A stretch of 64,000 bases of DNA from Rugalucina vietnamica (Eukaryota > Mollusca > Bivalvia > Lucinida > Lucinidae). Positions 5,008-44,873 of this stretch are shown in pieces. Positions within the stretch are counted from its first letter, which is position 1; every line of letters starts with the position of its first letter. The notes below the pieces were generated by a model that ran no database searches, was not told the origin of the DNA, and saw nothing but the letters and a program-made list of their open reading frames with translations. The DNA lies in contig OZ024871.1 of the NCBI GenBank assembly GCA_964017185.1, forward strand, positions 63,740,866 to 63,804,865. The letters run 5' to 3'. Position numbers and translations under genes: made by a program.

Positions 5008-5722
5008 CAGTGGTCCAGTTACTAGGCGCTACGGCGAAAAAAGTCGCTGAAAGTCGTCAGATTTTGCCTCATGGAGCCCAAAAAGAGAAGTCGAAGTCGC
5101 CTTATTTTATTTATTTCAAAACTTTACTTTCGATTTTGATCGTTGTGATTCACTCGTTACATTGTTTACAGCGCTAGAATACCGCTAATTTTCGCCTCTG
5201 GGTTGCCAAAGGCGACATCGTTGATTGTCGTGATACATAAAGCGTTACATAAAGACAGCGATTACCTTAATTGATAAATCCTTGCTCAATTATCGGATAA
5301 TTGCCTCAGTAATCAAACAAAACGCATGCCTTTACTCTAAATTTCACGCCGACTTAGAAGTGTCGCTTATGCTGATTGGCTAAAATGCGTCACGTGGCTA
5401 CAGCGAAAGTGACAAGGGGCGGCTCCAAGGGGCGGAATCATAAATTGAGAAGAAGACACGCTTCTGTGATTTAATATTTTGCAAATTATCTATCGTTGGC
5501 CTTTTTGATGTTTTGTCGGACTACCGTTTTGCGGTTCCATGGACAGATTTCGATGTTTGAGTAGATTGCTGATAACAAAAGATCGTAGTTATGGTAATTA
5601 GCTACCGCTTTGATTCGAAAATTAATTACTGTTACTCGTCACCATAAATTATTATTTTGATAATTTTATATGCTCATTTCCTTGATTTTATTTTATATTC
5701 TATCAGTTCATTTGCGACAGCC
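5008..5722 (+). mobile_element. Probable 5' terminus and leader of the hAT element
   Basis: Starts CAGTGGTCCAGTTACTAGG. Many hAT transposons begin with CAGTG plus a short inverted repeat, and this lies about 700 bp upstream of the transposase start. The stretch is richer in GC and in repeated GCGAC/GTCGC words than its surroundings. I found no matching 3' end (CCACTG) downstream, so the element is probably truncated on the right. The terminus assignment is inference. Confidence 0.4.
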
Positions 5723-6085
5723 ATGACGCTCGATTCTTGGCTGAAAATTGGGTCTACCAAAACCGGTAGCAAACGTAAGCTACTGGAAGATTCCGAAAAC
5801 ACAGAAAACGAATCTCCGGCTAAAACAAAGTTCACACAAGCTGTGAATCAAGATGCCTTCGACTGGAACAAGAAAGACGAACCGGGAAAATGGCACTGTT
5901 CGCTGTGTAGAGCCGCAAAGTTCGACAAACCCTACGCACAAGGCCATGATAAACCAGCGAAAACTACAAATCACACTCGTCATTCTACATGTATGTGAAG
6001 TAGCAATTTTATTTGGAAACTTGTATTAAAACCGCTGATTAAACTTTTAGTTAAGATAATAATTAACATTTGGCTTAGAAAATTA

Positions 6086-6151
6086 TTTTTGCTCAGTGGT
6101 GTGCAACAGGGATGCCTACTGGGACCAGTACTTTTATACTTATTTCTGAAC

Positions 6152-6153
<2 letters not shown>
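6086..6153 (+). pseudogene. Short non-LTR reverse-transcriptase fragment inside the hAT intron
   Basis: Translates as SGVQQGCLLGPVLLYLFLND, matching the RT motif GVPQGSVLGPLLFLLYIND of LINE-type elements. Only about 22 codons remain, followed directly by a poly-T tract. The piece lies wholly within the 265 bp intron (5991-6255) of the hAT pseudogene. Confidence 0.65.

Positions 6154-6200
<47 letters not shown>
6154..6200. repeat. Poly-T tract in the hAT intron
   Basis: About 47 consecutive T just after the RT fragment and upstream of the intron's splice acceptor. Confidence 0.95.
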
Positions 6201-6201
<1 letters not shown>

Positions 6202-7464
6202 TTTTAGTTATTTTTTTCTCATTTATTTTAACAAACTTGTCATTTTATATTTCAGCTCAGAATCATCTCATGGCTATTACGAAGTCCAAGCTGGCACCAA
6301 TACAACCGATGAAGAAGATGATAGAAGAGAGCTAGGACAAAGACGACGAGGCGATGATCAACTACCTCAAAGTCTCCTACCATATGGCGAAGCGAGAGAT
6401 GCCTAAAGAAGAGTTCCACCATTTTATTGAACTGATAGATGACTTAGGAGTGAAAACTGTGAAAGAATGTAAAAATCCCGACGATCCAACAGAGATGTCA
6501 TATCCATATACTAGTGATTATAGTGTTACTGAATTTCAAAGTGCTTGTGCTAAGGTGTTATGGATGACATTCTCAGTGAAATATCCTCTTCTCAGGTATA
6601 TTCCCTCATGATTGATGAGAGAACGGACAGGGCCAACAAAAAGCGGCTTCTTGCGTATGTTCAGTACTTTCACGAGAATAAGGTGAAAGTTAATCTCCTA
6701 GAGAATATTGAAATTTCTTCAGCTAAAGCAGACGCGGAGACAATTACGGCAAAAATTCATGGAGAATTAAACATCAAAGGTTTAGACATTCGTAAAATGA
6801 TAGGAATAGGGACATATGGTGCCAGCGTTATGACTGAAAGAAAGTCAGGGGTAGTTGTGAGACTGAAAGATCATAGTCCTTCCTTGATAGGTATTCATTG
6901 TGCTGCACATCGGTGTGTACTGGCAGCTTCACAGGCTGCTAAAGAGATTCCCCAGTTGAAGGAATACTCGCGTACACTCAGTAACATTTTTGACTATTTT
7001 AGTGGTTCAGCACTTCGTGCAAATAAACTAAGGGAAATACAGTTATTACTTCAACTTCCAACCTTGAAATATGCACAATTGCATTCTGTTCGTTGGTTAA
7101 GTTTGGAGAAAGCCGTAGAAGTGATTTACAGGACTTACCCAGCTCTCGTCATTGCTTTGGAACATGAAGCAATATCTAACCCAGCTGCTAAGGGACTGTT
7201 TCATCAAGTATCACAGTACAGTTTCATCGCGATTACACACATGTTAATGGACATTCTCCCATTCTGAGGTAAACTCGTTGTGCAGTAAAAATTTCATTCA
7301 GTTGTATAAGTTTGATTTTTGCAGGATATATTCACTAATATTCAAAAGATATTTACGCGGCAGTAATTGCATGTTTTCGTAATCATTTTTTCTGTATATT
7401 ATTTCATCGTTTTCGTTAAACCATGTCAGTATCAAAGGGTCACCTCTTTTAAAATGCCACTTTT

Positions 7465-10165: not shown

Positions 10166-10578
10166 AGACTTTACTGCATCAGGAAAACAAGTTCATGAAA
10201 TGTATACCCCCTTTATAGAAAAACTTAGGTGTTTAGGGATATACCTTTTTTAATATTTTGGATCCAAAATATACATTGTGGTTACTGTACCCACAATCAG
10301 TGTTTTGATAAAAAAATATTAAAAATATGACATTTTTTTCCAATGAAATTTTAAATTTTACAGCTGAAAAAAATCGTTGTTTATTGCATTATGCATTATG
10401 CTGTAGGTTGTCACTTGATGGTTACTGTATGGATATATTTTCAGAGTGTTTTTCATCGCAATTTTCATTGAGTATGTCGTCCTGGTATGAGATTGTCAAA
10501 TGTTACTCCTTTTGTGTCTAGACTAATTCTGGGCTAAGCTACATAATTCTGCCTTTTATAGTCCACCTAGACATTTAA

Positions 10579-11000: not shown

Positions 11001-11267
11001 CATTACGAAAACACGCCCATGCAATATACAGTGATTTTTATAGTCAGTAAAAAGTGAAATTTTTTAGTGGATTTTTTTTTTATTTTTTGCTCAAAACATA
11101 GATTGTAGGTGCACGTTAGAACCGCCTCGGCGAGGCGGTTCTAACGAGTACCCACAATCTATGTTTTAGAGCAAAAGTATGAAAAATAAATTACCCCTGC
11201 AAACACCAGTTTTAGTATATAAAAGTGGGGTTTAGTGGGGTATTTGCACGGACATGCTTTCCTGATA
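11001..11267 (+). mobile_element. Structured element B, copy B1, with imperfect long target duplication
   Basis: Begins CATTACGAAAACACGCCCAT and ends in a related inverted repeat (GGACATGCTTTCCTGATA). The centre is an almost perfect hairpin with arms from GCTCAAAACATAGATTGT to ACCGCCTCG and no real loop. On the right is a second hairpin, ACCAGTTTTAGTATATAAAAGTGGGGT, containing TATATAAAAG. The flanks AATAGGTGAAAGTTA (10986-11000) and AATAGGTGAAAGAAA (11268-11282) match at 13 of 15 positions, which fits a long target-site duplication. No ORF. Confidence 0.85.
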
Positions 11268-13755: not shown

Positions 13756-13976
13756 CATTACGAAAACGTGCCCATGCAATATGCAGGGATTTTTTTTCAG
13801 CTGTAAAAATTGAAAATTTTCAATAGAATTTAGTTGACATTTTTCTTATTTTTGCTCAAAACCATAGATTTAGGTTACTCGTTAGAACCGAAATAAGTAT
13901 ACCCCTGCATACCCCAGTTTTGCTTTAAAAGTGGGGTTTTAGGGGGTATTTATTTCACGGACATGTTTTCCTGATG
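13756..13976 (+). mobile_element. Structured element B, copy B2, hairpin arm lost
   Basis: Both termini are present (CATTACGAAAACGTGCCCAT and GGACATGTTTTCCTGATG), as is the right-hand hairpin. The central palindrome is cut after TCGTTAGAACCG and resumes at AAATAAGTATACCCCTGC, so one arm is deleted. The flanks show no direct repeat. Confidence 0.85.
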
Positions 13977-24119: not shown

Positions 24120-25080
24120 ATCCCAAAGATAAAACGGGTACAGAATACAAATCAGCTGACCACCATGAGACTTATAATTGTGGTAAAACAATGCCGAAGA
24201 AATTTCGTACAATGTCGCACTGAATGGTCTATTTTATTGGATGTGTTTATATAAATATACAATGAACCTAGTAACTGTTATTTTCACCACCAGACACCTT
24301 TTGAATATCAATCGCGAGATTGACGAACATTCCCCATTGGTTCATGGTTTTTGTAATGTCATGAGTTGAATTGTTATCACTTTAAGCAAGTCATGTGAAC
24401 CTCAAATTATTTCAAGTAATTTTCCATCATGAACCAAGGCGAATGGTGGTTGGATAGGTTCTTTGAACTATAACATGTCTACTATAGCCAATCCAATGCA
24501 GACAAAGAACCTGTTGATTGACAACATGAAAACATGCCCATGCAATAAACAGAGATATTTGAGCTTTAAAAATCGATTTTTTTTAACTAAAAATTTTGTA
24601 TATTTTTCTTATTTTTGCTCAAAACATAGATTGTGGATGTACATTAGAACCGTCTCAGCGAGGCGGTTCTAACGAGTACCCACAATATGTTTTGGAGCAA
24701 AAATAAGAAAAATAGGTATACCCCTGCATACCCCAGTTTTTGAATATAAAAATGGGTTTTAGGGGGTATTCATTGCACGGAGATGTTTTCCTGATGATAT
24801 ACAACAAAATACACAAAGAAACACTGCACTAGTTTCTAGGACCCATTCCTAGAAATTCTTCGAAAATTAAACGCTCTGATTAGACAAACTGCGTAGATTA
24901 GATGCCGAGTTTGATGTGCCACAAGTTGATGCCCATACAAATCTGTTCAATATGTTTATCAAGACTCTAGAAAAATTTTAATCTTCTGAAATCTTGAAAT
25001 CAATAAAGATGTTTTCGGAATTGATACAAATGTAATAACCAACGCAATGTTGCAGTTTTATGTTCCAATTTCACATGTTT
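24120..25080 (+). repeat. Paralogous block I1, interrupted by element B3
   Basis: Collinear with 57262-58380. Shared blocks are ACAGAATACAAATCAGCT, TGTTATCACTTTAAG, CATGTGA-CCTC, ATCATG, AGCCAATCC, GATGCCGAGTTTGAT, ACGCAATGTTG and CAATTTCACA. The two copies carry different later insertions: B3 here, a SINE there. No ORF is shared. Confidence 0.7.
24523..24796 (+). mobile_element. Structured element B, copy B3
   Basis: Termini are (C)AACATGAAAACATGCCCAT and GGAGATGTTTTCCTGATG. The central palindrome is intact, ATTAGAACCGTCTCAGCGAG and its mirror, and the right hairpin is present with a weakened TATA motif (GAATATAAAAATGGG). The flanks show no clear direct repeat. Confidence 0.88.
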
Positions 25081-38141: not shown

Positions 38142-38280
38142 CATTACGAAAACACGCCCATACAATATACAGAATTTTTTTGTTGTTGTAAAAATGAAAA
38201 TTTTCACTTGAAAAAGTTTGATATTTTTCTTATTTTTGCTCCCAAACATAGATTGTGGGTACACGATAGAATCGCCTCGG
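38142..38280 (+). mobile_element. Structured element B, half copy B5, cut at its hairpin apex
   Basis: Has the left terminus CATTACGAAAACACGCCCAT and the left arm of the palindrome up to GATAGAATCGCCTCGG, the exact centre of the hairpin. There GAATTC-rich text replaces the right half, which is not found beyond 38886. Confidence 0.88.
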
Positions 38281-39766: not shown

Positions 39767-40039
39767 CATTACGAAAAAACGCCCACACAATAAACAGTGA
39801 TTCTTTTAGCTTTAAAAACTGAAAATTTTCGGCTGAAAAATTTTGATTTGTATTTCTTATTTTTCTAGATTGTGGGTACACGTTAGAAACGCCTCGCCGA
39901 GGCTGTTCTAATGAGTACCCACAATCTATGGTTTGGAGCAAAAATAGGAAAAATAGGTATGCCCCTGCAAACTCCCAGTTTTTCTATATAAAAGTGGGGT
40001 ATAAGGGGGTAAACACTTCACGGACATGTTTTCCTGATG
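39767..40039 (+). mobile_element. Structured element B, copy B6
   Basis: Termini are CATTACGAAAAAACGCCCAC and GGACATGTTTTCCTGATG. The central palindrome is nearly complete (GATTGTGGGTACACGTTAGA and mirror, one mismatch near the apex). The right hairpin has CTATATAAAAGTGGGGT. The flanks are not repeated. Confidence 0.9.
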
Positions 40040-44231: not shown

Positions 44232-44247
44232 GAACTATTCTGCAAAC
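44232..44247 (+). repeat. Left 16 bp target duplication of B7
   Basis: GAACTATTCTGCAAAC, identical to 44526-44541, lies immediately outside the CATCAGG terminus. Confidence 0.85.
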
Positions 44248-44525
44248 CATCAGGAAAACATGTCCGTGAAATGTTTACCCCCTTAAACCCCACTTTTATA
44301 TAGTAAAAATGAGGTATGCAGAGGTATACCTATTTTTCTTATTTTTGCTTTAAAACATAGATTGTGGGTACTCGTTAGAACCGCCTTGACGAGGCGGTTC
44401 TAACGTGTACCCACAATCTATGTTTTGTGCAAAAATAAGAAAAATATCAAAAATTTTCTGCTGATTTTTTTCATTTTTAGAGCTTTAAAAATTTCTGTTT
44501 ATTGCATGGACAAGTTTTCGTAATG
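44248..44525 (-). mobile_element. Structured element B, copy B7, with a perfect 16 bp target duplication
   Basis: Reverse orientation. Starts CATCAGGAAAACATGTCCGT and ends GGACAAGTTTTCGTAATG. The right-type hairpin comes first, CCCCACTTTTATATAGTAAA. The central hairpin is long and almost perfect, from ATAGATTGTGGGTACTCGTT through CCGCCTTGACGAGGCGG to its mirror. The 16 bp repeats abut both termini with no gap, so the element is exactly 278 bp. No ORF. Confidence 0.92.
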
Positions 44526-44541
44526 GAACTATTCTGCAAAC
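44526..44541 (+). repeat. Right 16 bp target duplication of B7
   Basis: Second GAACTATTCTGCAAAC, directly after the GTAATG terminus. Confidence 0.85.
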
Positions 44542-44591: not shown

Positions 44592-44873
44592 CATTACGAA
44601 CCACGTGCCTATGCAATATCCAGAGGAGATTTTTTCACCTGTTAAAATTGAAAATTTCGAGAGAAAAATTTCGATATTTTTCTTATTTTTGCTCAAAACA
44701 TAGATTGTAGGTACACGTTAGAACCGCCTCGCCAAGGCGGTTCTAACGAGTACCCATAATCTATGTTTTGGAGCTAAAATAAGAAAAATAGGTATACCCC
44801 TGCAAACCCCGGTTTTACTATATAAAAGTGGGATTTAGGGGGGTATATATTGCACGGACATGTTTTCCTGATG
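44592..44873 (+). mobile_element. Structured element B, copy B8
   Basis: Only 66 bp from B7 and in the opposite orientation. Termini are CATTACGAACCACGTGCCTA and GGACATGTTTTCCTGATG. It has a full central palindrome (CGTTAGAACCGCCTCGCCAA and mirror) and an ACTATATAAAAGTGGG hairpin. No direct repeat at its flanks. Confidence 0.92.

Follow-up and report, generated by a model that had tools for sequence, protein, structure and literature searches.

A central question raised by this locus is whether a transposable element with terminal inverted repeats (TIRs), bounded on both sides by a perfect 16 bp direct repeat, reveals how the whole family to which it belongs moves. The element, a 278 bp member of what is hereafter referred to as family B, lies in a 64,000-nucleotide stretch of the Rugalucina vietnamica genome that was analysed as a whole (the window; source assembly of 1.09 Gb in 47 contigs). 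The repeat, GAACTATTCTGCAAAC, meets the element with zero spare bases on either side, as an earlier note on this DNA had described (Table 1). The probability that abutting 16-mers match in this way by chance is about 1e-9, and the focal repeat scored 16.0 versus a best score of 6.0 in 432 shuffled flank pairings; with up to four mismatches, GAACTATTCTGCAAAC is found at six further places in the window. The description of a hairpin-rich TIR element was likewise borne out, with 10/12 identical positions between the left end CATCAGGAAAAC and the reverse-complemented right end CATTACGAAAAC (21/30 over the first 30 bases) and a DNA fold of -74.1 kcal/mol (z = -15.5) for the element, which forms one long imperfect hairpin around a nearly perfect central palindrome.

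Table 1. Focal element, its flanking repeats and other family B copies, in window positions
Feature	Position	Strand	Remarks
Left 16 bp direct repeat, probable target duplication	44232..44247	+	16/16 vs right repeat; abuts element
Family B element, 278 bp, ends CATCAGGAAAAC / CATTACGAAAAC	44248..44525	+	no open frame of 100 aa; 93.5% identical to family B consensus
Left TIR CATCAGGAAAACATGTCC	44248..44265	+	
Right TIR CATTACGAAAACTTGTCC (minus strand letters)	44508..44525	-	
Central palindrome	44331..44446	.	arms 44352-44386 / 44392-44426 97% complementary
Outer extension of central palindrome, 18 bp arms	44331-44348 / 44429-44446		
Right 16 bp direct repeat	44526..44541	+	16/16 vs left repeat; abuts element
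Second B copy, 50 bp past right repeat	44592..44873	-	opposite orientation; flanking bases differ, no duplication seen
B copy	39767..40039	-	junctions share one base (A)
B copy, degenerate right end	24528..24796	-	
B copy with 12 bp direct repeat CTTTCACCTATT	11001..11267	-	3 extra bases at right end
B copy missing part of palindrome	13756..13976	-	
Half B copy, broken near central palindrome tip	38142..38279	-	
Old degenerate B copy	10177..10389	+	

Family B (consensus length 279 bp) is abundant, with 2,420 exact genome-wide matches to one right-end 22-mer and 481 matches with up to two mismatches to its 101-base left end, and the window contains at least six further copies, whole or partial, besides the focal one and its close neighbour. 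We pooled the window copies with three samples, namely 38 regions from a similarity search whose query carried the window's own flanks, 70 of 100 listed loci among the 2,420 right-end matches, and the first 60 of 100 listed loci among the 481 left-end matches (0 or 1 mismatch), and obtained 162 distinct copies. The ends of the family read CAT(C/T)A(G/C)GAAAAC. Both end motifs are intact in 125 copies, the remaining 37 being dropped by this stricter filter, while a looser end filter passed 144 of the 162 copies and dropped 18. For junction statistics, we used 85 copies with intact ends (L047-L176) that had been picked independently of flank sequence. No 3' tail, whether poly(A) or repeat, was found on family B, and truncated copies without the left end exist alongside others without the right end.

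We then searched the 144 copies for direct repeats of 8 to 44 bp, offset by at most 12 bases per side, with 432 shuffled pairings as the null, and found that the 16 bp repeat of the focal copy is a real but rare outcome, of a kind shared by a few percent of the copies examined. Long direct repeats were detected in 6/144 copies, with lengths of 34 bp (L016), 19 bp (L145), 16 bp (focal), 14 bp (L034), 13 bp (L162) and 12 bp (the copy at 11001). Their scores range from 10.5 to 34; no shuffled pairing exceeded 6.0, and L073, which ranks next among the real copies, scored 5.0. Excluding the focal copy, which was given beforehand, the count is 5/143, and the 85 flank-independent copies include two bearers (L162, and L145 with a one-base offset). 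The earlier note had extrapolated from the 16 bp duplication to family B and had proposed measuring the flanks of all genomic copies; this extrapolation fails, because most copies (138/144 without a long repeat) have a short duplication or none, which is the first of the two observations that the note had named as refuting.

The left repeat abuts the element exactly in 6/6 of these copies, and the right repeat is offset by 0, 0, 0, 1, 1 and 3 bases, extra bases being present at the right end only (one in L145, one in L034 and the three of the 11001 copy). Chance agreement or a pre-existing tandem repeat at the focal site is barely credible as an origin, given the match probability; a search turned up no empty site for the focal copy, whose flanks are unique in the genome, which leaves such an origin some room, but a tandem repeat would also require each of the five further copies that abut exactly on the left to have inserted at a unit boundary. 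For L145, an empty site was not found either (flanks unique apart from weak partial matches), and a combined search returned no spanning paralogue for L016, L162, L034 or the 11001 copy, the flanks of L016 and L034 having been trimmed around a high-copy repeat. It is thus their exact position and improbability, rather than any empty site, that lead us to read the long repeats as probable target duplications.

The typical family B duplication looks to be 0-2 bp with no fixed length, of which the 1-2 bp share is perhaps overestimated. Among the 85 flank-independent copies, base -1 equals base +1 in 54 (24.8 expected; 0/1000 shuffles reached 54), the two flank bases before the element equal the two after it in 16 (8.3 expected; reached by 8/1000 shuffles), and 20 show zero agreement across the junctions (52.6 expected). 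A mixture fit to 84 copies, from which the bearer of the 13 bp repeat was omitted, assigned 0.40 to no duplication, 0.48 to 1 bp and 0.11 to 2 bp (5-95% ranges from 60 bootstraps: 26-50%, 37-60% and 5-20%, respectively), and the shuffled control returned 0.97 for none. By sample, the share without duplication was 0.54 in 35 right-end copies, 0.28 in 49 left-end copies and 0.65 in 36 similarity-search copies, the last being partly flank-selected. The MITE-like site of L120 (below) shows that a one-base match across a junction may simply belong to the target without any duplication, which makes the 1-2 bp share an upper estimate. The 2 bp junction matches are mixed (TA, AA, TT, CT, AC and others), and a mild A/T enrichment marks flank positions -4, -2, +2 and +3 (125 copies, similarity-search set included), with the same tendency in the 85. 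A flank motif, AAAC...GAAC, seen in the similarity-search copies was discarded because the query with the window flanks had partly selected it, and owing to this biased selection the junction analysis was repeated with L047-L176 alone.

Some B copies sit in other repeats, and unoccupied paralogues were therefore available for comparison. Four insertions showed 0 bp: L120, which sits in a MITE-like repeat with 1,569 matches to its empty site; L041, a B inside B; L048, also a B inside B and less clean (there is a gap close by, and the right side includes only six bases of B); and L079, compared with 72-79% identical paralogues. L143 shares its insertion point and flanks with L120 and was counted as the same insertion; the high-copy repeat (1,569 pattern matches) carries this B insertion copied along with it. 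A 1 bp duplication was seen at L042 (clean, 86% paralogue), at L173 (versus four 79% paralogues, three of them mutually identical in the stretch shown) and, from match lengths only, at L148, where query and subject spans are equal in 5/13 spanning matches including the best three, and the others differ by -3 to +3, none by +1; comparison of L148 with the window (65% identical) was uninformative. The insertion at L138, again a B inside B, showed 2 bp. L028, L111, L129, L141, L146, L154 and L168 were ambiguous and excluded from these counts, L154 giving 0 bp versus the nearest array unit (116/120 bases) and 2 bp versus two of the other three units, and L141 exceeding in length, by about 10 bases, a part of the window to which it is 74% identical. 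A tandem array of about 305 bp units (L178-L181) lies on contig C7 near 53.78 Mb, and a related unit about 50 kb away holds L154.

Its matched ends and precise junctions, the missing tail, and truncated copies that have lost one end or the other indicate that family B is a TIR DNA transposon mobilised in trans. The reading that we hold to be somewhat probable is that family B is a non-autonomous, MITE-like TIR transposon for which a trans-acting enzyme opens the target 0-2 nt apart and, rarely, 12-34 nt apart. Under this cut-and-paste model, a putative transposase would recognise the CAT(C/T)A(G/C)GAAAAC ends and would make either a blunt cut in the target or one staggered by 1-2 nt, so that the duplication would measure 0, 1 or 2 bp. 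For a few percent of insertions, the target strands may instead be opened 12-34 nt apart; gap filling would then leave a long perfect repeat such as that at 44232-44541, sometimes together with 1-3 extra right-end bases, so that the long class would arise at insertion. The recombinase with a wide staggered cut that the earlier note had envisaged does not describe the habit of the family, and survives at most as a rare outcome (6/144). A more far-reaching proposal, that B represents a lineage whose strand transfers are not locked at a fixed spacing and in which one family yields two discrete duplication classes, is tentative and on present evidence rather doubtful; if true, the unlocked spacing would set this transposase, and perhaps a whole superfamily, apart from those compared here.

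The main rivals are capture at breaks and recombination between close insertions. In the former, a transposase would excise the element, which would re-enter at host double-strand breaks through end joining, near-blunt breaks giving 0-2 bp and staggered ones 12-34 bp with filler. This scenario, unlikely in our view, accounts for the two size classes, for the one to three bases added at a single junction in three of the copies and for the weak target preference (A/T near the junction), but end joining at random breaks is expected to lose bases often, and no target loss at the junction was seen at the seven sites compared letter by letter (L120, L041, L048, L079, L042, L173 and L138). In the latter, the long repeats would be secondary, with two close B insertions on sister or homologous chromosomes recombining inside B and so flanking one copy with the intervening sequence. 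The copies do cluster (the focal copy and that at 44592 are 66 bp apart, and L065 and L074 contain three copies each) and the ordinary duplications are tiny, both of which suit such an exchange. It would, however, need two insertions within 12-34 bp followed by the exchange, for which 6/144 is high, and it leaves the right-end-only extra bases unexplained; we regard it as decidedly unlikely.

Returning to the favoured transposon reading, we compared family B with known systems. Like MITEs, B is short, non-coding and hairpin-rich, occurs in thousands of copies, is nested in other repeats and has TIRs in many copies (both motifs in 125/162); unlike MITEs, it has no target duplication of fixed length, showing instead the 0-2 bp mixture together with 12-34 bp in 6/144. 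Tc1/mariner, piggyBac, hAT, MULE, P and EnSpm elements make fixed TA, TTAA, 8-9 bp or 2-4 bp duplications. Such fixed signatures do not characterise the 85 copies: TA|TA occurs in 6 and TTAA in 0, exact flank matches of 3, 4 and 5 bp occur in 1, 2 and 1 copies, respectively, and those of 6, 7, 8, 9 or 10 bp in none, and allowing one mismatch at 8 and 9 bp also gave 0/85. The earlier statement that the element fits neither DNA transposons nor retroposons thus stands as far as the common fixed-duplication superfamilies are concerned, and falls in so far as it took 16 bp as the habit of B. Long variable duplications are known from the bacterial IS1634 group, which B resembles as a TIR element with unusually long variable duplications.

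LINEs and SINEs have a tail or 3' repeat, are truncated at the 5' end only and bear a long duplication in most copies. Family B resembles them in its variable target duplications, those of the 12-34 bp class, but it has two matched TIRs and no tail, is found in copies without either end, and typically duplicates 0-2 bp, with a long duplication in 6/144; its signature is unusual and is not that of retroposition. These features bear directly on the target-primed insertion of a folded RNA, as raised in the earlier note, for example by the Penelope-like elements apparently present in this genome. Copies of the latter do exist here (91-100% alike over a 265 bp part among the 40 matches listed), and in the long class of B the junction is exact on the left in every copy and additional bases turn up on the right in some, as such a process might produce. 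LINE duplications also vary in length, according to an excerpt of PMC8969392. Nevertheless, the usual 0-2 bp duplication, the TIRs, intact at both ends in most copies, the loss of either end and the missing poly(A) or repeat tail all disfavour an RNA intermediate, and an Rfam scan of the window (4227 families) gave 0 matches at the gathering score, hence no ribozyme match. A hammerhead or retrozyme relationship, considered for CTGATG and CGAAAAC near the ends, was rejected, as these motifs appear to stand in the wrong strand order and Rfam gave no such match in the window.

Single-strand mobility of the HUH or rolling-circle type, as in Helitrons and Helentrons, would leave no duplication and involve hairpin-rich ends. 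Elements of this kind (DINE-1, HINE) insert at A|T or in T-rich or TT sites, as described in an excerpt of PMC4067079. Family B is similar in leaving the target unchanged at part of its sites (four empty sites with 0 bp and no loss) and in its strong hairpins, and T|T junctions occur in 23/85 copies versus about 14 from base counts. Its ends differ, however, with terminal inverted repeats at both; T|T at 23/85 and A|T at 8/85 are too few for such a target rule, and duplications of 1 and 2 bp are present at L042 and L138. We therefore judge this route very unlikely, and priming by a folded RNA, if anything, a little less probable still.

Spy, of the PHIS group, inserts in AAATTT without duplication, and the TIRs of ISL2EU and PIF/Harbinger, which duplicate AT or TWA, usually start with GG or A/G (both from an excerpt of PMC4482050). 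As a TIR element with AT-rich surroundings and no duplication at part of its sites, B resembles Spy, but it also makes 1-2 bp duplications, and among the 85 copies AAA on the left was found in 2, TTT on the right in 5 and the two together (AAA|TTT) in 0. With ISL2EU and PIF/Harbinger (PHIS group; 2 or 3 bp), family B has small duplications and AT-rich targets in common, but its duplications are 0-2 bp of mixed bases, its TIR starts with CAT, and TWA was found in 1/85. None of Spy, Helitrons/Helentrons and the checked fixed-duplication superfamilies agrees with B in every defining feature tested. For a 1 bp target duplication, we found no description in the open-access literature, which is not proof of its absence from print.

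As a rule, each family of LTR or DNA transposons has its own characteristic duplication length (stated in an excerpt of PMC8969392), and duplication length serves as a class marker for DNA transposons for this reason. Family B, a TIR family of high copy number in which duplications of 0-2 bp prevail and those of 12-34 bp occur at times, departs from this rule. The thousands of natural B insertions, some of them in repeats with empty copies, offer a test bed for the control of spacing, and the present case warns that a single repeat-flanked copy cannot define the mechanism of a family.

No autonomous partner sharing the B ends was seen among the fetched loci, and loci with the B right end but without a full copy appear to be fragments or a composite repeat, with no partner among them. 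L088, which combines B ends with a foreign interior, was rejected as a partner; because this interior (923-1187) belongs to the 3' part of a Penelope-like element, the locus represents an insertion into B. We take the L088 interior, L194 and L195 to be Penelope-like; they form tandem and inverted partial arrays, and RVT_1 and GIY-YIG matches fell below the Pfam cut-offs. Elsewhere in the window, 5648-7264 (+) contains two open frames, with 0 Pfam families for both, that presumably resemble pieces of a ZBED/hAT-type protein.

Several rearranged forms of B were also observed. In another repeat family, at least about 1.2 kb long, the right half of B is present in broken form and runs into the same CTTACATTTA-like flank each time (L051, L083, L089, L093, L109 and L115), and a local 819 bp tandem duplication holds two B copies with identical flanks (L009 / L002 / L003). 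Breaks or deletions near the tip of the central palindrome are frequent (the half copy at 38142-38279 in the window; L114, L070, L107, L053 and others), and the resulting half copies look as if the hairpin had been cut.
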